A stretch of DNA of 48,076 bases from Spirogloea muscicola (lineage: Eukaryota; Streptophyta; Zygnematophyceae; Spirogloeales; Spirogloeaceae): the NCBI GenBank assembly GCA_009602725.1, contig WELB01000005.1, positions 81,385-129,460 on the forward strand. The letters are read 5' to 3'. The notes beneath the pieces are model-generated. The model was not told the DNA's origin. It did not search any database and saw only the letters and a list, made by a program, of their open reading frames with translations. The translations under genes and the position numbers were made by a program. Positions 6,195 to 48,076 of this stretch are shown here, in pieces; position 1 is the stretch's first letter; each line of letters begins with the position of its first letter.

Positions 6195-9100
6195 CTATTG
6201 CACGCTTATAGACTTTACGGACTCTAGACGCACCTCAGGTTGATTTGAGTGGCTCCCTGCCTTCTGACGACGATTGCGGTGTCGTTTGGTTACCACAGTG
6301 AAACCATCCCCATCCAAGGACTTCTCTTGGTCTTCAGAAGATACACTGCATGCGCTGCTGCAGTCCTGCTTGTGCCCACTGCTTGAACAAGTGCATATCG
6401 ACATGGTCAGGGGGTAGAATGTACTATGACCCTTATGTCATGCCGGTTCTCATGCAGAGCATCTTAAGAAGAGGCACAAGACTGCCAAACAAAGCAACAA
6501 CATCTAACAGGATGCTAGTCTGACGCTTCAAGTTTCTGTGGGCAGCATGTAGAGCTCAATCATTACCACACAAGTACTGGTGGCTTGTAACAGACAGATA
6601 GAGACAGACAGAGTATGACTTCGGGGTTTGCGCTGCACCTGCTGTTGTCACTGTTGTAGGGACTCTCCCCAAGTGCATTGTCGCTAGCAGCTGCCGAAAT
6701 AGAGGGTCGTTCATCAGAGTGAGTAGTGTCCAGCTCAGACTTTACTCGTCGGAGAACCTCGACCCCGTCCATGCTGTCTGCTGGCAGGGCCCTTTGGGAG
6801 GCCATCTCGCCAGCGCCTGACGCCTCCACCCTTGACATACCCAGGCCGTCAGTCTCTGTCCACGATGGTGGCAACTCCGCACCTAGCAAATCGGTCGTGC
6901 AGCCGACGGTTTCAGACGGGTCCACCTCAGGCTGCTGCTTGCTCTCCTCCAGACTGGCCCAGGACTGAATTGCTGGAGCAATGGTCTGCAAGGTGGGCTG
7001 CTTGTCTGCCATATCCATCAGATCACTTGCTGGTGCCTCCACCTGTTTGTCCTGCGAATCAGCTTCGTGGTCTTCTTTCAACGTCTCACGTCCACTGTCG
7101 CCCTGCGGCAAAATTTCAACTGCTTGCCCGAGGCCTGTAGAGATGTCATCAGCTGTCGTTATTGAGGCTCCATCCACCACCCCGCTCTCAGCAGTTGCAA
7201 GGGCTGCTGCAGGCTTCTCCATCTCATTGCCACTGCTGACCTGCTGGCACACATCGTCGGAGGGTAGTATGTAAATGACACAAGTAGGACAGTGATGTAG
7301 CAAGACATATGCAGACAACACCCAAACGCTCCATCCCGCCCTCATTGCCATCTCAAAGGCGAGATGCTAATGCTAGATACACCAACTTCAGGCTAAGGCC
7401 TGGTCATTTGCCACCATCATCCAGAGTAATTCATCCTCGCGCCCAACAATCCCTCAGAAACCTCTTGTCATGATGATGTCCATGACTATCTGGCACCTTC
7501 ACAGAGCTTCGCTGGTCCTCGACTGCTCACCTTTGCTGCCTTGTTAGTCCCTTGTTCCGCGTTAGGGGCCCAAACGCAACCAGGTACATATTCGACTGCG
7601 TTTGGGTTCATGGAGGCCTGCTTCACTGTAGCTCCAGGCACAAACTCTGCTGCATTGGGGTTCATGAGGGTTGGCGACGTTGGTGAGATAGAAGGGCCTG
7701 CACGAGGAGCAATCGCCTGAAGATGCTGGAGCTGTGGAGGCGGCCGCTGCATGTAGAGAGGGTAGATTGGAGCTATGGGCAGCGGGGGCGCATGGAAGGG
7801 CCGCATGGGGCCTGACACTTGCGGCCCCATGGCTGGCGGGCTGGCAATCAAGCCGGGCAGGACGTTCGCCGAACCATGCGGCACCTGCATCACAGGGGGA
7901 GCGAATCCAGGCCTGTCCAACCACACAAGCACAGCGAGCAACACGTCAAGGTGCGGTATCTCGAGTGTAATGGCCATTCCGTTAGCAGCATCATAGACTG
8001 CCCGATGAGCACAAGCACAGATCTACAGTTGCACCTTACGCTATGCCCCACCAAATCATGACACTTACCTGCAAAGGGGCGTGAGTGGCAAAGCTGGGCG
8101 CTTGGGCAAGGAACCTTTCGGTCGCACCTGGTCAGAGGATCACACAAACAGGCTTGTGTTTTCACATGGTCAAGGACGGGATGACCGACTAACCATAAAC
8201 CAACAGACCACGATGCCAAGAGCACCCAAACAACGTGCAATATGTGCACAACCATACCTGATTGCCATGCGCCCCATAGGCGAGGTCACCGGAGTGTGGA
8301 TTGCCTGAGCTGACTGCTGGCTTTAGAGGTGAGATCTCGGCAGACCCTGGAGGTTGGACCGGTGGGACTGTCAAGGGTTTGAATGGAACAGCGGCAGCCG
8401 AGAGCCGCTGCTTCAGCTCCTGTGTGCCCTCCTTTGGCAGTGGGGCTGAGCTCTCTGGTCCCATCACGTCCTCTTTTGTGTCTTCCACAGGTAGACTGTC
8501 CGCAGCTCCTGCAAGCATAGCAGCGCCTGCACTCCTGCTTCGCCACGCTTGGTCCTGCTCCCCGGGCCCACATGTGTCCTGCCCATCCACTTTGACGTGG
8601 CCGTTGCTCGTGCACTCATGAGCAGCGACCGGAGCAGGGAGCTCATTCAGCAGCTTCCGTGCAGCATCCTTGTACGAGATGGCTGATGTAGATCTGGCCA
8701 GCTGGCCGGGCAGAGGGGGGTTGGTGATGACGGGGGCTGGAGTAGAGGCCTGTGATCTCTTGAGCTCCAGCCTCTCAGGGAGCTGCTTTACTGAAGGCAG
8801 CTCCTTGTCAGCTGCTGCAAGTGCCAGCATCTCCTTGCCATCAGTACCAGTCCTAGAGGTAGTCTTGGTAGTGCTTGCCGCTGGGACTGGCAGTGCAACT
8901 GCAGGAATGGCTGCTGGGGGCTCCTGCAGCTCACTGACAGTCGCTGACGATTTTGCTGGGGGCTCCTGCAGCTCACTGACAGTTGCTGCCGATCTCGTGC
9001 TGGCCTTTGCCGCCGGCGGGCTCGCTACCTGAAGGAGCTGATGTGCCACCAGGCTGCTGCTTCTTCGGCGGACATGGTGCTTGTCACCAGTAGCCAGCCC

Positions 9101-24469: not shown

Positions 24470-33847
<9,378 letters not shown>

Positions 33848-35460: not shown

Positions 35461-36931
35461 GGCCGCGAGTCATAAAGACTAGCCAACGGAAAGGAGTCGC
35501 CCTGTCAGTAGCCTGAGGGAGCAGCCAGGGCACAGGCAGCACGCAGATAAAGGCTAAAGCCAGGATATTGCTTTAAGTAGACATTGGCATTTGATACACA
35601 AGGGCCAGACTGCTTGCGGCAACAATATTGGCTCCTCCCACTAGGTGCCCCTGCCATCGAAAAATTGCTTGATACGCAAGTCGCCGCAGGAGGTCAAAGT
35701 AACCGAACCTCGAACATGGACGTCTATTGCATTCAAATTTCTTAGATACCCAAGAGACATAATCGTCTAATAAGTGGGGCCAAAAAAGAGTGGACAGCAA
35801 TTGGGCCTCTGCCAGAAAGGCGCCCTTCAGACAAACGAGAGGCTGCCATGTTGTATGCAGAAGCCCCCAGTCAATAACCCGAAGGTGACACACCGATAGA
35901 GTGCAAGCTTGACCAGAGGCGGCAGCTGCTGTTAGAGGCCAGCACAAAGGAGAATGTTCGTGAGTCTTGGGCACGATGGTGCTGGCAAAGGCCGCCGGTG
36001 CAACAGATGAAGCCACCCGACTGGTCAAGTGTGCCAGCTTATTGGCTGCGAGATGGCAAAGGCTGCCGTCTCGCAGTCAACAAGCTGGGGGCATGAGCCT
36101 GGGGTCAGAGAGACTACTGCAGGGCATCGAGGTCCCTCGGCAGATGCCCAAGGCAGCGAACGCACTTGATCCTGGCAAAGGTGCAGGGCAAAGGATTACC
36201 GATGTTGCCAAGACACTGACGACCGCGTGTAATGGGTACGCTCAGGCAAGCTGGATGTTGGCCTGCTCCTGCTTGGTGCCTGCCTGAGGCTTAAAGCTCA
36301 GTGTCTGTCGTCATATGCAAGTGGGTGAGCTGGCCCATAATGAGCATCTGCTTCTCCCATGGAGCAAGAACAACTCCTCTCCTCCACCTCTAGCCCCAAC
36401 TTTTCTCCTCAGTTTCGCATTGACTGCCTCCTGCAATTTCAGCCTCACAATGGAGCTCGTCTCTCACTTCCTCAAGGACAAGTCACCTATTTCTTCCTTT
36501 CAGCTGGCTCCTCGCTGCCACCACCCTCATAAGGTGGGAATGCTACTCCTCTTGTCTTGGTCCCTAACTCGATTTCTGCTCGCTCACAGCTTGCGCTGGC
36601 AAGGTGCCCGTTGAGCCATGCTGGGGTTGCCAAACGACGTCCTGGCCATGGAGATATTGGGCCCGCCGCCAAGACTGTGGCCGGAGGAGCAAGGTGCAAG
36701 TCCCTGCACTATTTGGCCCCTCTCATGCTTGCTGGTAGTGCACTTCTGGCAGAAGGGCCTGCAGCAGCAGATCGCTCTCTGGGCTACAGGCTCTCCAAAG
36801 CAGCAGATGGGACAGCTAACTTCAGGTCCTTGTGCCTAAGGCAGAGCAGGGTTGTGGTGTGCAAGACGGGCAAGGCTGGAAACCAGCCTTGACACTGGTG
36901 CATGGAAAGTCTGAGAATTGCGGCAACTACG
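35461..36931. other. Intergenic, no gene recognised
   Basis: About 1.5 kb between the repeat cluster and the PWWP gene stop codon. Open frames are short and their translations show no family resemblance. The right end should contain the PWWP-gene 3' UTR. Confidence 0.45.
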
Positions 36932-39557
36932 CTAGGTGACAGCTGTATGGGCAAATGGGGACCCCGCAGGTGGGCTGAGTCCAAGCTGGCGCATGATCCG
37001 CTGTCGCCGCTCCTGGCGCTGGTTGAGGGCAGGCATCTTCTCCTGCACAGGTATAATCTCCTTTCAAAGACGTACACGCAAATTTCAACTTGTGACTTTC
37101 TCTCAGGTAAGGTGGAGACAGGAGCGATCTGTTTCGCTTATGTCCCAAACCTCGTGCTCAATGCTCGATGGCAGGTTGGCTTGCAAGCAGGAACCTGCTG
37201 ACTGCCTAATCACCACCTGCCTCACCAGGAGGTTGGCTGGCTAAGCATGTAAAGATGCAAATTACCCTGAGTTGGGAACAAGCACTCTACCTCTCTTGCA
37301 GCACCCTTCATCCAGCCCTTGCGTTTGCTGCGCTGGGAAATGGCGCCGACCCTATTACCCTCGTCGTGTTCACCAGTAGGATCTGCAGTCAGGCAAGCAC
37401 CTCAGTATCTTACTTCCAAGCCCTGATCAGAAAGGCGATGCCGAGCCCCCTTGTCTTTGCCCAATCAACAGCGTCGCATCTTTGTTGCACATCACATGGC
37501 ATAGGAGCAGCATTCAGGTTTTCCCCCAACTGGATCAAAAGGGCGACTACCTTCACTATCGCCACCAATTGTCAGCAGCCCCGGCTGCAGTTCGTTGGAG
37601 GAATTGCCCTCCCACCTGCTCGGCAGTTTCCCCGTCTTTGAGAACTCAAGCGCCTGCATGACTGGTCAGACACCAGCTTGAGCACAGTGCCTGCCATGGT
37701 GCAGGAGTCGAGCAGGTTGCCAGATACACTGAAAACCCCCAAGAACCCCCAACAAGCAGCTTATGTGACCTGCACAGTTGGCACGTCTAAAATGACAGCT
37801 GAAAGGAAGTGGGCTAGTCCTTAAGAGCTGCAAAAGACTTGCAGTTACAGCGTGCATCTGGGAGATGCTGAGAGTCCATCTATAGAGTTGGGTCTAAATA
37901 CCTCGTCAATGCCGACTTGGAAGGACTTCTTCTTGCTCTTGCTCCTGTCAGCAAATTTCTGCGTTGCAGCAAGAGGCATCAGGTGAACGACTGCTTGCTT
38001 TTCCACCACTGCGATAAGCTTCTTGTTATTTCTCTGAGATTGTGAGCCTTTCCTTAGTAATTGAAATTTGTGCAGATCTTTCTCATTTCTATTTAGGACT
38101 GATCTGGTTTGTTTCCGTGACAGAAAGCAGGCACAGAGTCAACAGACCCTAGTAGACACCCTGAAGTTCTAACCCTAAATGCAAGCCACCAACTGACATG
38201 GCATCCGTATGCAGTGCTGGACAAGCGTCGAGGAAGTCTTTTAACAGCATATGCTGACAGTATGCTGAAGAGCTTCACGTGAGGAGCTAAGACAAGTATG
38301 TGAGACTGACCACATGGAGCTCCGAGATGCAAGCCACAGCGTCCACCCAGGCACTGCAGGTCACAAAGTATGATGCTGAGACGGCAACCCAACACAGGAC
38401 TTCACGACCACAAGACATAACAAGGAATTGGCCCGTTCACAAGACTTAGCAAAGTAGCAGCTGTCCGTAATTAGGCATCTATGCTGGTAGTCCTGCCAAT
38501 GAGTGACACTAAGCAAAGCGCAAGCAAAAGATGAACCTGTTCAACAGCACTACTCTCGCTCCGCAGCAGCTGCAGAATGTTTCTGCCAGTAAGCAGAGCC
38601 TTGGCGTTCATGGGCCTCCAGAGGCCAGCTCTGAAGGCACTCACTAGTCATAGGTGCCGAAGAAACGAACAAGGACCTCCCTGTCGGAGGTCTGCTCCTT
38701 GCGCAGGCCCGCGTCAGCCATTGCTCCATCGACGACCTGGCCAACATGCATCTCGTCAGATTCTGACGGGGCTGGCAGTAGACACAAGGTAGACGAATCG
38801 GATGGGCTCGAGTTGGGCTTTGTGTGAACCATTCAATTCTCCCCGTTATTGTGGAACATCGAAGCTTGACATATGGAAGTATCGCCCAAAGCCCATCTCT
38901 TCACCATATCTACAACGACCATGCTCAATGTGGACGACTATCCAACCGCAGACTTACCAACTTCTCAAGAGTCACCTGAACCTGATCTGCACAGAAGTGC
39001 GTCCAACTTGCTTCCTCTGACGCGATGTCAGAGCAGGGCAGCTGATGGTAGCTGGGGCGCGCACCTGAGCCGGCCACCACGGGAAGCGGCCCAGCTTCGC
39101 CCAGATGGCCTTGCCCACGAGGTCCCGGGCCTCCGCACTGCTCCCGTCGCTCCCATCTTTGGCCGCGGGCTGCGCTTTTGAGCGGGCCCTCAGCATCGCG
39201 TCATACCCAGTCTCGTCGGCCCTGCCAACGCCGCAAATGAGATTATCAATGGCAGCGGGCCAGCTTGAGCTTCCCAAGCCCCGCCGAGCCGGGCCATGGC
39301 GGCGCCGCCACAGCGCCCAGAAGCCTAAACCCCGAACCCTGAACCAACCTCTCCAGCTTGGCCTCCTCGCGAGCCCTGGCGGCGGCGAGCCGCGCCTTGA
39401 CGCGCGCCGTCCCGCGGATGCCGTCGTCTGCCGGCGGCTTCACAGGCGGCGACGCCTCCGCCGCCGCCGCCGCTGCCACCGCCGCCGCCGTCGCCGCCGC
39501 CGCCGCCGCCGCTGCAGCTGCAGCTGTGTTCCAAACTGACTCCAAACCAGCAGACAT
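36932..39557 (-). CDS. PWWP-domain protein (chromatin reader), polyalanine N-terminus
   Basis: PWWP domains bind methylated-lysine nucleosomes and DNA in the nucleus. Traced exons: 39557-39349, 39221-39065, a small exon near 38980-38963 (VTLEKL), 38817-38645, 38353-38311, 38033-37902, one starting at 37653, and a last exon from about 37050 to the stop at 36932. The domain is split: VGKAIWAKLGRFPWWPAQ in exon 2, then VLVRFFGTYDYAWV across the exon 4/5 junction. The 60-residue stretch between them is longer than in a simple PWWP, so the domain carries an insert rich in Ser/Asp. Downstream are KFADRSKSKKKSFQVGIDE and ALEFSKTGKLPSRW, the usual helical end of plant PWWP proteins, and RRQRIMRQLGLSPPAGSPF at the C-terminus. 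The N-terminus (MSAGLESVWNT...) is followed by long Ala runs. At least one exon between 37060 and 37600 remains unresolved. The exact target is unknown. Confidence 0.8.
39455..39525 (-). repeat. GCN run encoding polyalanine in the PWWP protein
   Basis: An imperfect trinucleotide run (CCGCCG... on the plus strand) codes for long Ala tracts just after MSAGLESVWNT. Such tracts expand and contract easily and are usually disordered or helical linkers. Confidence 0.8.
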
Positions 39558-40189
39558 CAGTTTGATATTTCTGAAAATGAAAATCGTGGAAAACAGTCAG
39601 ATGTTGTCAAAACAATGACAAAGAAGGAAGAAACTATGAAAGAGAAAAGGAGGTGAAAGTGTCATGGAAAATCTTAATGTCGAGGACTCGAGGGCAGCCT
39701 CGAAGTCTCTTCTTGAGTCTCAGCAGTCTTGATATTTGACATCATAACGGAATTTGTCACTTATTATGGGACTTTGGCTTCTTCTGAAGTATTCCTTCTT
39801 ATGGTGAAATACCCAATTTCAAGATGCAACAAATGAGAACATTCACTTATTCTAACAAAGAAGAAAGTCTACTTTCCACATTGGTGAATAGATTAAATGT
39901 TAGGCTTGCTCGTATTTTGATCTGTGATTCTATTCTTGCAGCAAGACATTCTCTATCTCGTGCTACAACAGGAGGGATGGGGTTCAGTGTGTGAGCTATT
40001 TGCCACGGCATGGCGAGAAGAAGAGTGCAGCGGCAGAGGAACCAAAAGCCTTCNCGCCGACGCCGCCGCCGCCGCCGCGGACCCCGACGCCGCCGCACCC
40101 GACCGACGGCGCGGCGACGCGCAGGCAATTGCATGACAGGGCCGTCGGTGGCGCCGTCCGCTGCCGCTGTGTCCTCGTGAGCTGGCTCA
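39558..40189. promoter_or_regulatory. Divergent promoter region between the PWWP and coiled-coil genes
   Basis: 632 bp separate the start codons of two genes transcribed away from each other. The left two thirds are AT-rich and the right third, from about 40055, is GC-rich and contains an N at 40054. It must hold both promoters. No specific element is assigned. Confidence 0.6.
40054..40054. other. Single ambiguous base (N) beside a CCG-rich run
   Basis: One N occurs at the border between average-composition sequence and a CCG-rich island upstream of the coiled-coil gene. It does not affect coding sequence in the model given. Confidence 0.9.
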
Positions 40190-43100
40190 ATGTCGTGGAT
40201 CAAGTCCGCATTCAACAAAGCGGCGGAGGCGGCCGGCGGCGCCGGCAAGGGCTCCGTACCTTCGTCGCTGTCTCGCGTCAGGCTGTACGCCGGGTCCGTC
40301 GTCCAGAACGCCGGGCACGCGGTCGCAGGCAGCGCAAAGATATTCCAGGAGCGCCTGGTGAGCATTTGCCACTTCCACGACCGTGTGGCGATTACGGCCA
40401 ATATCGTCGGGCGGGATTCTCTTCGCCAGTAGTTTAACATCTCCGATTGTGAATTTTTCATCAAAGAGCTCGTGACCGCCTGGAGTAGACCTTGTCATGC
40501 CGACGGCAGTGGAAGTCACTGTCGAGTTGCCTTAGGGGATGGCTATGGATGTACTGTCATAAATGCAATCTTCAATACGGTCAACAGACTTCATGCTCTG
40601 TGCCCAACGTCAGTTCTGTTGACTTACTGATCACACTCGCACTTCATGCTAGTGAGCTGGCACTATAGTAGGTTGATGTTGGTGTCATCAGACAATTAAC
40701 ATGCTTCTACATCTATGGTTAGCAACCGTCTCTGCCTGCTTTGCTACATCAGCAAGCAAGGCAGCAGTGAGCTGTTTCAGTCACTAGCAGATCAGACAGG
40801 CTGCATAAGCTTGGAAGCTAATTGGCACCGCTCTTTTGTTGCATGAGTACTGCAGTCGGGCAAACATTACAACAACTTCAAGCATGCTGTGCGGAGGCTG
40901 GATGAAGTCTCACTGGCGACTCGAGGCGAAGAAAGACTGCAAGCCCTGACACGATGGTTGGGTGCTCTCAAGGATCTGGACAATGACGCCAAAGTTGCGG
41001 CATCAAAGCTTGAGAGGCAGAGTGCAGCCTCCAGAGAAGGGTCGCCGGGGTCCCCCACGGATCAAGAGCCGGTAGCCAAAGAGAGCAACGAAGTAGAAGC
41101 AGAAGAAGAGCTGCCTCCTACACCAAGCAAAGCTGCCTCTGTAAGCATGGCATTTCATGATCTTGCTGTCAATTTTGTTCACACGAGTAAGTCAGAGAAG
41201 AGGTCAGAATGACTATCTTGTCGCACTTGAAACTCTCTTGACATTGCCTGTAGCATTCTTCTTTACAATTGGTTGCGGCTGCATCTGCTTGTGGATTAGC
41301 AAGATGACTTGTGGGCTAGAAGCCTAACATCTGAAGACAGTAGATGCCATGGCCCAGAGGCCTTAGCCCACTTTGCCCACAATCGTCTGAGGTGGTGAAC
41401 CAGGTCCTCTTCTTTGACTCTGAGGTCTGCAGCGAGCCTCTCAGCTTCAGGGACCTATTTCTCCGCAGCAATGCTTTGGAAAACATCGTGACCTCATTGG
41501 TGAGGTCTTGGGCCCACCTCAATAAGCCGCCCCCCCCCCAGGAGAATGCTCTTTTGCCGCAAGAACAGTCCCTAGCTGTGAATAGCAAGTCATTTGACAA
41601 ACTCTTAAGTAGTATTGAGCTTTGCTTGTGAATATCTTCGTCTCCATACCTTCTCTGCATCCACGAAATGCTGGAGATTACTATCTGGGACAGCAACTCT
41701 TGCAGGTGGTGTACTTAACATACTGATCTATGAAAGACTGAGGTTCCAGGAAAAGCATCACATGGTCTGACTACTTGTGCATCTGAGCAGATATTGGATG
41801 CACCTGAAGATGAGGAAGTCTCGATTGTACTTGAGATGTTCTGGTAGGCATGTCTTCACTTCTTTGATATGCTTGCACAGTATCTTCCTGCCTTGTGTGG
41901 AGACAGCGGGTATGCTTCCAATCAACACACTGTTGAGGCTCGATGCACGCATGCGGTGCTCCTGCATCAGGTTATGCCTCGCTGGAGGGCAAGAAGTACA
42001 CAAGGCGATCATGAGTGGCATTCAGGATCTTTCGAAAGTGAATGCGGGGTACTCAGATGAGGTTTTGGTGAGTAAAGCGCCACTAATCTCTATGGCCTTC
42101 TCGAGTGGCTTGTACCGCATATTCTACGTCACGAAGGTAACAAACAAGCACTCTGTTGTTGCACACTTCAGTTTCGCTGTCTCTCAAGCATATGCGGGCT
42201 CATACTGGCCATGGAGTTACTGCTGGCAGATAACTCGTGAGGAGTTGCTGCATATGGCAAGGGATGTCGTGACGGGACTGAAGCAAAACTCTGCAATCGA
42301 AAGGTTCTCTTTGCTAGCTCGGTGCCTGCCACAGACATCCTTGGTTGAATGACTCGCACACTTCCGAGCGCACACCTTATGAGAGGCAGGCAAGTCAGAG
42401 GTCCACTCAGTCACGTGTTTTGTGGCATCAGGTTGAATGTAGAGATAGGCCGTCTGCAACAACACATGGATGAGAAGTTGGCCTCATTGCCAAGCGAGGC
42501 TATACCTCTGGCTAAGTCAACTGAATCTGAGGACCTCCCTGATACCTTGAAGGAGGTAGGGAATCTCTATGGCAGGACTCTCAGCTTCTTCATCTGCAGA
42601 ATGCATTGCTGAAATCTCCATGTCATCTGAGAGCTGATTTGCAATCCTTTACTGCCAATATGCGGCTCTGACTCACACTTAAATTTGCGCTCAATATGTT
42701 GCTGATGGGCTGCAGGGATCTGCTTTGACTGAGGACATTTTGCACTTGGCATCTCGCTTGGGAGACTGCCTGCAGAAGAAGAAGGCTGAGCTTCACCAGG
42801 GTGATGACACAGAAACACGAAATGAGAAGGTGCGCTGGAGAAATGTCATATGCTTCACCTAAAAGAAGAGCATATTTGTCATGCATCATGCTCCTCCTGC
42901 ACTGGTTACATCGACCCTGCTGAACGTTCTTGCTGTGTTGTGTCCTTCTGCAGGTCGAGAGGCTTAAGCAGCTGGCAGCCGAGCTCGCTGATGGAGCAGC
43001 CAAAATCAAGGCGAAGATATCAGAGAGCAGGTGAGCAAGCTTTCAAGCAATAGACGTAGACGCCGTGGGAATGACATGTTCCTTGCAAGCTGTGGAAGCC

Positions 43101-45502
43101 CATTCCATTTGTCCTTGTGGAGTCCTTGTAAGGTGCAGATCAGGCGAGGATGAAGCTTACAATTAGCGCCAAGTTTGTGCAGGCAACAGAAGTCAGATGC
43201 AATGGCATACCGGGTGACAAAGTCACAGGAGGTCGCAGAAGTTGAGAAGGTAGCAAATACAGAGGAAAAGAGTCCTTCGATCCCCATGTCAATCTGTTTA
43301 AGTTGCAGACTTTATGGTCTCCATAAGCAATCTCTTACGACTATGATAAGTGGCTGTCACAAGTCAGTCCTTTGACATTGTTGGTTTGGCAGGTTATATT
43401 TCCCCCACTGCTCCTCCTGACCCTTTCTTTTCTGCTCTGTGCAGATCATTGCCGATGAAATGCAGACATTGGAAAAGCGAAGGGCAGAGCTAGAGGCTGA
43501 GCTTGTTGCAGTGACTGCAGCCATTGCCCAGGCAACCAAGCGGCACGTCAACATACAAGAAGAGAAGGAGCAGTTTGACGAAGCCAGTAGCAACATTGTA
43601 GCCCACCTTACCATTCAGGTCAGAAATACATGTAGTCTTCATCCCAGTTCCCAGTTCCATATGCGACACTCTCATAAGTGGTGCAGACGTGTGTGCGTCA
43701 GATCAGTGAACCGTGGAATGCCGTCCTGTGAAAATGCAGGAGGAAGATGGCAGTCGGTCCATAGCAGCGCATACAACAGAAGTCAACGTGCTCAAAATGT
43801 GGCAAGACTTTTTGGAGGACACTTGGAAGTTACAGCAGTCCTGCATCAAAGAGAAGGAGCAAGAAACCATGTAAGTGACAGCAGTGGTCACACTTGCAAG
43901 TGATCTGTATCCGCGTCTGGGGTGCAGCCGGCGCAGTACCTTGGCACAGCGGCACCAGTGGAACTTGTGTTTACCATCTATGATGTGGATGTTCTGCAGG
44001 GCTGCCATTGATTGCTCTCGGAAGAGCTTCTTCCAAATTGCTGCAAGTCACTTGAGATACCGCCAGGTACATTTTGCTATCAGAATTTTGGAGAAGGAAG
44101 TATCTCAGTCGATGTCAGAAGACACATCAGCCATAGCAGCAACCTTGTCCCTTTCTCCTGCTGAATAGTGAGGCCTTCAGGAGATTTTGGTATCTAGTTG
44201 TTGGTTCGCTCATGCAGTGAGCTTGGGTGATCCTCACTACTTTTGCTTCTTATGCATCTGGTGCTGATGGCAGGAGGAATTGTCCCAGCTACTTACCAAG
44301 CTGAAAGCTCGGCATGCAGGGCTAGTCGAATTGCAAGTCAAGAGGTAAGCCTCTCAACAGCCAGCTTCTAGGCGGCTTCTAGGCAGGGTCAGCCACCACA
44401 ATCAAGCACCTAGTATGAAAATCGCATTCCGTCCTTCAAGTTTCAAGCTTTGTTACCCGAGTAGCTGGTTGCATGAGGAATGGATGAAAGTGGAACCACT
44501 GATAAGGGGGTTTCTAGTGCCACCTCGACGGCATTCTGCTTATCCTTGAAAGGCGTAGCATGCCTGCAGGGAGGAGCTGCAGGCATCTGGACAGGAGCCC
44601 GGTATAGTTGACGTTACAAGCAACCGCAGGAGGGTGGAGGAGAAATATGTGGACCTTGAGGGGCAGCTGAAGAGAGCCCTCGCCTCATTGAAGAAGATGA
44701 AGGCGGACGTGGAGACGTACTCTGCCAGCGAGCCTCAAGAGTAGGAGGATCATCTTGACTTCACAACTAAGAGTCCGAACACTTCATCATTGCGGGCAAG
44801 CATTCAAGTGGGTGTGGCTGATCCCTTGAGATGTCTTCTTGTTGAGGGACACCTCTCTCCTAATCCACACATTCATGGGCTTTCTGCTGCAGAGGTCCCG
44901 AGAAGGAACTTCAGCACCAGGTGGTGGAAGCTCTGGCCAGTATGGACGCCCTTTGTGCAGACTTTGAGGGCTTGCCACGTCCAGCGCTGCAAATTGAGCA
45001 GCCTGTTGTGCGGGTGAAGAAGCACTTTGTCAAGTCGTCCGAGAGCTGGGGGGGGGGCAGCAGCAGGCCCGACCCTCCCAGTATGCAGAGGGACTCCGCC
45101 GCAGCGGCAATGGGCAAGGATGATGGTGCGGCGGCCGGCTCCATGGAGGGTACCGCAGTAGTCGAGGACTTAGGGCTGCCTCAGGCGGCAGACGGGGAGC
45201 AGCAGTCACTGCCTCGGGCCTCTGCCGGCGAAGGACCAGTTGAGGATGCACAAGCGGCGCTTGGTGGAGCCGGCCAAGACGAGGATGGATGGGAGCTGGA
45301 TGATGCCGACGACAGAGCTTCCACTGCCCCCCACAGCTCTGATGACTTTAGCAGCACACTGGACTCGACGCCGAGCGCTGAGCAGAATGAGGTCACTAAT
45401 GGCGACAAGACCGCCAAACGGAGCTCCAGCTTTGTGCAACCAGACGGCCACGTGGGCAAGGGCTCGAGGGCGCCAGTGAAGCAGCTGCCTCCGCAGCGCT
45501 GA
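40190..45502 (+). CDS. Conserved green-lineage coiled-coil protein of unknown function, 16 exons, 788 aa
   Basis: Exons: 40190-40357, 40856-41140, 41392-41499, 41791-41843, 41971-42067, 42230-42303, 42432-42555, 42716-42829, 42954-43030, 43183-43249, 43445-43618, 43740-43870, 44000-44066, 44274-44344, 44570-44716, 44893-45502 (2367 nt; the frame closes exactly). It starts MSWIKSAFNKAAEAAGG, followed by YAGSVVQNAGHAVAGSAKIF and the helical VRRLDEVSLATRGEERLQAL. The middle has ILDAPEDEEVSIVLEMF and LCLAGGQEVHKAIMSGIQDL, then about 350 residues of predicted coiled coil (for example IIADEMQTLEKRRAELEAEL). The tail is acidic/Ser-rich and includes DGWELDDADD. From memory, uncharacterised plant proteins share this architecture, with the same MSW start and WE/D-rich tail; no function is known to me. 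No membrane segment or signal peptide is seen, so it is probably a cytosolic scaffold. Confidence 0.88.
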
Positions 45503-45983
45503 TGCTTAGCAAATGTGTCGGGCATTCAGGGCAGTCATGCGCCACTTCTGCACTACACAGCGGCAGGTGATCGCCACCTGATTGCCTGTGAGCGGTGTGG
45601 CTGCCCGTTGGTGGGCCACTTTCTTGATTCTGCCCATCGTTATAGGAGCGACTGCCAGCAGGCGCTTGTCAAGCAGGCACTCATTACGATGAGCGCTCTG
45701 GTCAGCGGCTTTGTTCGGTTTTCCTTACTGGTGAGATGCGACTATTGGTGCGACATCATCACCACACAGTCCTCGCACACGTGCCAAATGTACAGACTGT
45801 GGCAGACACCACATGCAAGTGCCGGTAGGATCACCTCTAACATGCGCTACCAGCCACACCAAGGCCACTGCACGATGTTGACCGGCCTGCCAGGCCCTGC
45901 CTGCAAAAGTGCGATGTGGACAAGGGGCAGGAGCCTTGCTTCTGCGGCATGTCGGACGCTGCTATTTGACACTAAGAGTCCCT
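45503..45983. other. Convergent intergenic region (3' UTRs)
   Basis: 481 bp between the stop codons of the coiled-coil gene (+) and the NOI/RIN4-like gene (-). A short plus-strand frame at 45515-46048 runs through it and overlaps the NOI last exon in antisense; it has no recognisable content. Both 3' UTRs must lie or overlap here. Confidence 0.6.
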
Positions 45984-47975
45984 TTACTCCTCCGCGCGGG
46001 CTGAAAAGCAGGCGAAGCACCCTGCGCCACTACGTGCCTGCACGGTGATGCCAGCGGACGCAGGCTTGTTAGATGAACAGGCCATCTGGAAGCATGACGC
46101 GGAGGTTCTTCAGGGAAGAGCGGCTGTGGCGAAGCAGCTGGAGGCTGGCAGAATAGCTGAAGGCAGAGGCCAGGCACTCACTGGCTGCTTTCTGGGCTTG
46201 TCTGCCATAGGGTTGGTGCTTAAGCTCCGACTTTCGCCGAGGAAGATGGGGAGCGATTGCGACGCGCCCTTGCGGTAGGTGCTAAAGGCCGCCGAGTACG
46301 AGTCGGCTTCGCTGGGGTTGTCATCCCACTGCCCAAAGGCTGGGAGCCCAGCCTCCTTCTGGACCTTCGCATCACCACCGAGGAGAAGAGAGTGGGGGGG
46401 GGGGAGACAGAAAGAGAGAGGGAGGGAGGTCATTGAAAGCAAGCCAATGACAGCTCTACGGTTACGAAGGGGCTTAGCAAACGATCGAGCTGGTTGGTCC
46501 AACAAGGGCGGTGGCGATGGCGGCTGCGGCAAGGGTGGCGGTGCTCACTGGTCGTGGTGGCAGCGGGACAGGGAGGTGGCCGGCCTTTATGGCGTAGTCG
46601 CGCAGGGCGGCGAGGTCAACAACCGAAACCTTTATGTCACGAGTCTTGTCCTCCGGCAGCGCCAGCGGCTGCTCCCGCTGCGACGCCTTCCTCGTCAGGA
46701 CTGCCCGTACGTTGCCGCCGGCGGCGCGGCGCCGGGGCTCCTGGCCCGAGGCCGACCGATGGGTAGCCCGCCGATCGTGCTGCCGCTGCTGGTCAGCGCC
46801 CTCGTCGTCACGCCGCGCTGCTGCCGGCTGCTCCAGCCAGCTATCTGTGCCGGTGCCACTGCCAAGCACATGCATCGTGTGCAGCCGCCGCAACGTGCGC
46901 TCCTGCCGGCCATCCTCGTCGCCGCTGTCTGGCCCAACTGCCGCAGCCTTGGGCTTGGGCCACGGCGCCGACGGCGCCACCGCTTTGGCATTTGTCACGC
47001 AGACGTCGGGCGTGTCGGCAGTGCTGCCGCAGCCGCCGGCTCTGAAACGCTGCTTCGACGGCTTCCGCTGCAGCCTCGGCTGCATCCTGCCCTGCGCCAG
47101 TGGCAGCGGCCCTGACGACATGGTCCGGTGGAGGCGCCGCGCCGCCAGAGCCGTTGCCACCGGGCTGCCGCTGTCGTCCTCCCTGGGTGATGGCGGCGAG
47201 AGGTCTCTGTGCTCCACGCACACAACGCGCTTCTCTACCTCTCTTTCGCTCCCCGAGTCGTCGACAACATCGCCATTGCGGACATTGCCGCCACCCGCCG
47301 CAGCGGCAGCCGCCTGCGGCAGCGAGAGCTGGTGCTGCAGACGGAGGCGGCTCTCCTCCATGCTGCGCGCCCACAGCTCGTCGACTGTCCGCGGCACCGC
47401 TCGCCGGCCGTCCTCGCCGCCGCTGCTGGCGCTGCTGCCGTTGCTCGACGGCGGCGAGCCGCCGCGCCGCTGGTGCGGATAGCTGCAGCTCGTCACCCGC
47501 ATCAGCCGCGGTGCGCCGCCGCCGCCACTAGCGCCGCCGCCGCCAGCCGCTGCCGATAGGTTTGCTGGCGTCGCTGCGGCCATCACAGCTTCCCTATCGG
47601 GGGTTGCCGGGGGCGGAGGCCCCGGAGCGCCAGTGGCTGCCAGCACCCGCGATGCGGAGCTCACGAGGCTGCCAGCCAGCGGCTTCACCAGCGGGCTCCG
47701 GCCTTTGGCCGTCCTGGCGCCGCCGTTGCCGCGCTGTCCCTCGCCGCCCTGCCAGCCGCCGGTGTCATCCGTGAGTCAGGAGACTGCTGCGGCGGCTGCA
47801 AAGGTGCACAATGATTGGCGATAACTCCTAACTACAGGCATTGGAGCGGCAGCCGCACCTTGGAATTGAGCGGGAGGCCGTTGTGATCAAAGCGCGCACG
47901 GTCGAAGACGAGGCTGTACGCCAGGTGGTCGTTTGGGTCCCACTGCCCGAACTTGGGCACGTGCTTCGCCGGCGG
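45984..47975 (-). CDS. NOI/RIN4-like protein with two NOI boxes, 5' end outside the window
   Basis: RIN4-type proteins are plasma-membrane-tethered regulators of plant immunity and exocytosis. Exons: 47975-47859, 47748-46549, 46358-46182, 46037-45984 (516 codons in the window, all junctions phase 0). NOI box 1 is HVPKFGQWDPNDHLAYSLVF with DRARF; NOI box 2 is GLPAFGQWDDNPSEADSYSA with AFSTYRKG. Both contain the [VL]PxFGxW core that defines the AvrRpt2-cleavage/NOI motif. The last exon encodes ARSGAGCFACFSARAEE, a C-terminal Cys pair in the position where RIN4 is acylated. The boxes are separated by about 400 residues, encoded by one long exon, rich in Ser/Arg/Ala and probably disordered, much longer than in land-plant RIN4. 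Exon starting at 47975 is preceded by a long pyrimidine tract, so at least one earlier exon with the start codon lies beyond 48076. Immune function is not implied for an alga. Confidence 0.82.
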
Positions 47976-48076
47976 CTGCAGGAGCAGAGAGAGTGGGGTG
48001 TAAGCACAGTTGAGGCTCCGGGCGGCGGGTGGCAGAGGAGGAGGGAGGTCGAAAGGGGGGGGGGGAGCGGAGAGGG
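47976..48076 (-). other. Intron of the NOI/RIN4-like gene (right edge)
   Basis: On the minus strand this is a pyrimidine-rich tract ending in CTGCAG directly before the first NOI exon, as expected of a splice acceptor. It includes an 11-12 nt C run (G on the plus strand). The window ends within the intron. Confidence 0.65.

Follow-up and report, generated by a model that had tools for sequence, protein, structure and literature searches.

The closest described relatives of the gene reported here are RIN4 and the other two-NOI proteins of land plants. The NOI family is marked by two motifs, PxFGxW and a "highly conserved" Y/FTxxF (PMC3661340). In Arabidopsis RIN4, C-terminal cysteines hold the protein at the plasma membrane, and cleavage in both NOI boxes releases the middle part in soluble form and leaves the C-terminal fragment on the membrane (PMC13378167). 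Two residues of the same protein, Asn11 and Asp153, are ADP-ribosylated by AvrRpm1 (PMC12620056), and the exocyst subunit EXO70B1 interacts with RIN4 (PMC5853926). The family has been traced "as far back as moss" (PMC3661340) and tied to the colonisation of land, Marchantia, two chlorophytes and three red algae being listed without members (PMC9514647). Here we describe a RIN4-type gene at the very end of the window, a 48,076-nucleotide stretch (C5:81385-129460) of a 1.58 Mb contig, C5, in a 153.1 Mb assembly of 471 contigs whose host appears to be a streptophyte alga, probably a zygnematophyte.

The gene runs on the minus strand from 47975 to 45984 in four predicted phase-0 exons, and it is almost certainly a member of the NOI/RIN4 family. 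Its predicted product, 515 residues plus stop, carries an N-terminal NOI box (N-NOI), a long low-complexity spacer, a C-terminal NOI box (C-NOI) and a Cys tail. We consider that the gene was most likely inherited from an ancestor common with land plants, not assembled twice; this is the best explanation overall, with a probability of about 0.72. A single inherited architecture is favoured because the introns lie in like places and because each box is nearer its own land-plant counterpart. Two other contigs bear on the argument: C60, with a second copy of the C-terminal half, and C29, with a separate single-box gene. The features of the gene, in the direction of reading, are as follows.

47976-48076, minus strand: 3' part of the intron before N-NOI; the exon that holds the start codon (exon 1) should lie further upstream, within a run of N.
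47859-47975, minus strand: exon with the N-terminal NOI box (PPAKH-VPKFGQW...YSLVFDRAR...LNSK); PF05627 25.3 bits against a cut-off of 20.3; phase 0.
47749-47858, minus strand: intron of 110 bases between the boxes, after N-NOI; its in-frame CAG acceptor was chosen for a 433-codon frame.
46549-47748, minus strand: spacer exon of 400 residues, low in complexity and rich in A, R, G, P and S, within the 433-codon open frame; donor CCA/GTGAGC.
46359-46548, minus strand: intron of 190 bases directly 5' of C-NOI, from the exon model; its place is comparable to that of "intron 2" in the two-NOI genes of land plants (PMC3661340).
46182-46358, minus strand: exon with the C-terminal NOI box (KEAG-LPAFGQW-DDNPSEADSYSAAF...); PF05627 26.4-28.7 bits; 165 of 177 bases the same in C60.
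46038-46181, minus strand: intron of 144 bases directly before the Cys tail; donor CCA/GTGAGT and CAG acceptor, both preserved in C60.
45984-46037, minus strand: last exon, ARSGAGCFACFSARAEE then stop; preserved in C60, where the 18 codons, stop counted, show three synonymous changes and one replacement.

Membership of the family follows from the boxes themselves. The PF05627 model is 37 positions long and has a curated cut-off of 20.3 bits. In the raw reading frames the N-box scored 22.8 and the C-box 26.4 bits, and as exon pieces they scored 25.3 and 27.4 bits; the profile search that the original prediction had called for thus placed both boxes over the cut-off, at 22.8-28.7 bits overall. 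The first box, in the 47975-47859 exon, reads PPAKHVPKFGQWDPNDHLAYSLVFDRARFDHNGLPLNSK, with its VPKFGQW core at 47960-47940. The second, in the 46358-46182 exon, reads KEAGLPAFGQWDDNPSEADSYSAAFSTYRKG, followed by 28 more residues, with its LPAFGQW core at 46346-46326. Both satisfy the PxFGxW motif. The tail, GCFACFSARAEE, has two Cys flanked by Phe in its last 12 residues, as in RIN4 (one to three Cys in the last twelve, with aromatic flanks). The two [VL]PxFGxW cores and the CFACF tail reported at the outset are all present, and the tail is preserved in C60. Among PDB sequences, the best match to C-NOI was RIN4 in 2nud (E 0.0026) and the next a RIN4 peptide in 8two (E 0.0059), the other five of the seven matches having E near 1. 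A genome-wide PF05627 search listed three boxes at E <= 0.001, missing the N-box, and four at E <= 10, every one of which exceeded the cut-off. C60 and C29 account for one each and the window gene for two; four is the number found, as the search can overlook matches and runs of N hide sequence.

A chance likeness between a short motif and a GC-rich region is barely credible as an explanation. The Pfam model is short, and 3 of 14 prokaryote control genomes gave a match at E <= 10; none of the 14, however, gave one over the cut-off. Against chance there are two boxes over the cut-off about 1.5 kb apart in the same orientation, a constrained copy of one of them on C60, and a box with a like tail on C29.

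Each of the four exon lengths is divisible by three, and the sole in-frame stop across the 516 codons is the last one. The residues and coordinates were as first described, the end points coinciding exactly with the stop codon and the N-NOI acceptor. The N-NOI exon is entered through a pyrimidine tract and CAG acceptor and left by the donor AAG/GTGCGG. At the C-NOI exon, an alternative acceptor six bases upstream also preserves the frame. This exon may begin slightly further upstream, to judge from its alignment with C60, since the bases directly upstream of the chosen acceptor are well preserved there (32 of 34 the same).

The C60 block matches window positions 35578-46392 in five collinear pieces of 82-91% identity; a sixth match, of 61 bases, lies elsewhere and out of line. 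Within the gene, identity is 165/177 bases in the C-NOI exon, 118/144 in the following intron, 50/54 in the tail exon and 61/74 after the stop. Across the C-NOI and tail exons, 15 of 77 codons differ, 11 of the 15 synonymously, and C60 also preserves the CFACF tail and both splice sites of the final intron. By this comparison the exons of the C-terminal half look constrained.

Upstream of its C-box, the C60 copy breaks off at six TTTAGGG repeats adjoining a single N. These repeats, of the plant telomere type, together with the N occupy C60:623046-623090 (L005:7047-7091), directly upstream of the C-NOI exon and inside a 717 kb contig. They represent either an interstitial telomere repeat that truncates the gene or an assembly join, and the N-terminal half of this copy is either absent or unassembled. 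Just downstream of the RIN4-type gene in the window lies a convergent frame of 212 codons (44864-45502, plus strand), 85% identical to a frame on C60; a Pfam search with it found no family over the cut-off.

The intron places provide the first comparison with land plants. A survey of 51 two-NOI genes (moss, monocots and dicots) places introns before N-NOI (41 of the 51), before C-NOI (all but three) and adjoining the Cys tail; every moss gene analysed has extra introns between the first two, and in moss and most monocots a single residue separates the third intron from the Cys (PMC3661340, Afzal et al.). The algal introns lie five codons before VPKFG, four before LPAFG and six before the first tail Cys, with one more between the boxes. 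They agree by place with land-plant introns 1, 2 and 3, the third being near and not identical.

The boxes provide the second. By BLOSUM62, the algal N-box scored 72 with the Arabidopsis N-NOI and 60 with the Arabidopsis C-NOI (taken from a PDB match), and its spacing from W to Y is seven residues, as in N-NOI. The algal C-box scored 73 with the Arabidopsis C-NOI against 44 with the N-NOI, and the C60 copy 77 against 48. The C29 box scored 55 with N-NOI and 46 with C-NOI. On these sequence comparisons, the two-NOI architecture was probably inherited and is probably older than land plants. We rate this no higher because a box of about 25 residues has too few positions to support a firm tree. 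The layout named in the original prediction, two NOI boxes with an acylation-type Cys tail, is likewise supported by the Pfam scores, the C60 copy of the C-terminal half and the land-plant-like intron places. That prediction had left two outcomes open, an architecture that predates land plants or one that has arisen twice: the first is supported provided that the host is an alga, and the second is less likely in view of the own-counterpart box scores and the introns in like places.

A gene on C29 bears on the same question. Its model, with joins predicted from splice sites, starts with a short exon encoding MSGSGTDYPK and a 53-base intron; an 836-codon exon comes next, and a 513-base intron separates it from the last exon, VPKKKQSSWLSCFCPFSE plus stop. 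The model totals 864 residues with no inner stop and comprises one box and a Cys tail. The box, VPRFGQWSDPATGPANYTAVFEIAKAGR, sits a few residues into the 836-codon exon. The model repeats a pattern of the window gene, with an intron ahead of the box and the Cys tail in a separate last exon. We found no second box at this locus, either with a custom NOI profile over 10 kb or with Pfam, and no PDB relative of its box at E <= 10. We considered the gene as a third copy of the window gene and rejected this, as the two share a single 42-base DNA match at 85.7% and no second box was found at C29.

The main rival to common inheritance is an independent origin of the two-NOI layout, in which an ancestral protein with one NOI box and a Cys tail gained a second box in the alga and, separately, in land plants. 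The C29 model is just such a single-box, Cys-tailed protein in the same genome, and C60 keeps the C-terminal half only. N-NOI boxes may stem from independent duplications (PMC3661340), and two chlorophytes and Marchantia are reported without members (PMC9514647). Weighed against this, the algal boxes score higher with their own land-plant counterparts, including the seven-residue spacing from W to Y, and introns stand at all three land-plant places. We regard an independent origin as unlikely.

Inheritance of the complete layout from a common ancestor remains our preferred explanation, and several observations count against it. The presence of two NOI boxes in one protein is true of a predicted exon model whose joins were predicted from sequence alone. 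Exon 1, with the Met, falls outside the window in a run of N at C5:129461 to 137115. Boxes of this length, about 25 residues, would not yield a firm tree, and the comparison was by pairwise scores. Both boxes of the window gene have YS for the YT of the conserved Y/FTxxF (YSLVF and YSAAF); a strict Thr occurs in two of the four boxes found, YTAAF on C60 and YTAVF on C29. It had been predicted that a Ser stands in the second box at the regulatory Thr of RIN4, which is correct for this copy, whose first box has Ser likewise, and does not extend to the C60 copy, which has Thr. As C60 lacks the N-terminal half, the joining of the N-box to the C-box depends on the window locus alone.

The spacer adds to these objections, and it is the weakest part of the gene model because it has no copy elsewhere and its opening acceptor has a poor pyrimidine tract. 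This boundary of the 47749-47858 intron is the least certain in the model. A genome search found no second copy of the spacer exon, and no convincing copies of either the N-NOI or the spacer exon elsewhere in the genome, with one match at E 0.3 and 33% identity. Further, the box cores are 438 residues apart, about three times the distance of 142 from N11 to D153 in Arabidopsis RIN4. In the spacer's favour, nine of 500 dinucleotide shuffles of its region gave a frame as long as the 433-codon one or longer, the longest frame being shorter in the other 491; the figure is flattering, the region having been chosen for that frame. Its GC content by codon position (0.74/0.62/0.80) resembles that of the C29 frame (0.75/0.62/0.76).

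The predicted joins, the unique spacer with its weak acceptor and the missing N-terminal half on C60 would also fit two neighbouring genes or a decayed locus, in which the N-box exon is not joined to the C-box and tail exons in one transcript. We find this quite improbable. All exons lie on one strand in phase 0, the introns measure 110-190 bases, and 516 codons run without an inner stop; in addition, the GC content by codon position is coding-like, the donors either side of C-NOI are consensus-like, and the order of the boxes is that of RIN4.

The argument for an origin before land plants depends on the host. The original prediction had reasoned from a chlorophyte, which is unlikely: the RbcS is of the land-plant type, GRAS matches are abundant, gene sets occur in threes and no dynein match exceeded the cut-off. 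A chlorophyte host was rejected on the first three of these. The RbcS exon scored up to 104 bits with plant-type chains against 82 bits with 1gk8, which we take to be the Chlamydomonas chain, as we likewise assume the species of the other RbcS codes. GRAS gave 92 exon matches in the genome, many of them, by eye, in near-equal threes on different contigs (for example C53, C160 and C91) and some not in threes. Exo70 was found at six loci forming two threes (C2, C287, C193 and C20, C18, C152; grouped by eye, unaligned). A genome search with two models of the dynein heavy chain found no match over the cut-off and two below it (E 0.017 and 0.094), a soft absence, and the positive control, kinesin, gave 19 matches at E <= 1e-20. 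NB-ARC gave three matches in 153 Mb, just over the cut-off, a soft result as 3 of 14 prokaryote controls also pass.

These data also bear on whether the assembly comes from a land plant, or contig C5 is land-plant contamination, and the gene an ordinary RIN4. The RbcS is nearest land-plant chains and GRAS matches are abundant, as this would predict. Land plants, however, usually carry many NB-ARC domains, as against three marginal matches here, and mosses, liverworts and ferns have dynein, for which no match exceeded the cut-off. C5 is moreover 1.58 Mb long with a diverged homologous block on C60, and gene sets occur in near-equal threes. We consider a land-plant source very unlikely and continue with a streptophyte alga. 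The gene sets in threes suggest a genome triplication, yet the RIN4-type gene shows two copies and the C29 gene one. A genome triplication is mentioned for Spirogloea muscicola (PMC7994812), and this zygnematophyte may be the host, since a green genome rich in GRAS, seemingly triplicated and lacking clear dynein would suit it.

Elsewhere in the window are ABC transporter exons (24857-30896, minus strand), with ABC_membrane and ABC_tran matches, and a frame with a PAM2 motif (7489-8022, minus strand; 27.2 bits). PAM2 is an element that binds poly(A)-binding protein.

In the excerpts of PMC3661340 and PMC9514647, no sampling of zygnematophytes is evident. We found no report of RIN4/NOI in streptophyte algae in the open-licence literature, judged largely from listings, which falls short of proving absence, and two scans of IMG/VR viral contigs gave no confirmed relatives. 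A family member with two boxes and a Cys tail in a streptophyte alga would move the origin of this immune hub before land plants, earlier than either paper places it, and what RIN4 did before NLR guards becomes directly testable in an alga. We give an even chance to a fuller scenario, in which the ancestor of zygnematophytes and land plants held the complete RIN4 layout (N-NOI, disordered spacer, C-NOI, acylated Cys tail and three intron places) along with a separate single-NOI, Cys-tailed protein, the RIN4-type protein being an older secretion or membrane hub that bacterial effectors and NLR guards adopted later. The older hub is suggested by the presence of RIN4-type genes in a genome in which almost no NLR-type domains were found.

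How such a protein might work can be sketched by analogy with RIN4. By that analogy we infer its disorder, its anchoring to the membrane, its partners and its cleavage, as well as a defence role if it has one. The product would be a long, mostly disordered scaffold, anchored at the plasma membrane through S-acylated C-terminal cysteines, in which the two short NOI boxes would dock partners from membrane traffic, Exo70 for example, and act as switches for them. The predicted product has the elements that this requires, and Exo70 matches occur in the same genome. If a PxFGxW box were cut or modified, the N-terminal part could then come away from a membrane-bound C-terminal stub. We propose this membrane-tethered scaffold or exocyst mechanism, tied to secretion, only tentatively. 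An NLR guard of the algal protein is not suggested, because only three marginal NB-ARC matches were found.

Compared with the known systems, the algal gene both resembles RIN4 and departs from it. In Arabidopsis RIN4, the x of FGxW is Asn11 in one box and Asp153 in the other, whereas the algal gene has Gln at both. Gln stands there in all four algal boxes, and the residues that accept ADP-ribose from AvrRpm1 are thus absent in the alga. AvrRpt2 cleavage in both boxes is compatible with the PxFGxW sequence. The second algal core also differs in its Leu and Ala (LPAFGQW), a charged end, ARAEE, follows the cysteines, and both YSxxF motifs have Ser (with Thr in the C60 copy). An intron lies between the boxes, like moss genes and unlike those of angiosperms. 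Like the short one-NOI proteins of land plants, the C29 model combines a single box with a Cys tail (VPKKKQSSWLSCFCPFSE), but at 864 residues it is not short, and the window gene differs from that class in having two boxes. With the two-NOI class of land plants, to which RIN4 belongs, the window gene, as modelled, shares two PF05627 boxes with PxFGxW cores, a low-complexity middle, Phe-flanked C-terminal Cys, and introns ahead of each NOI box and of the Cys tail.
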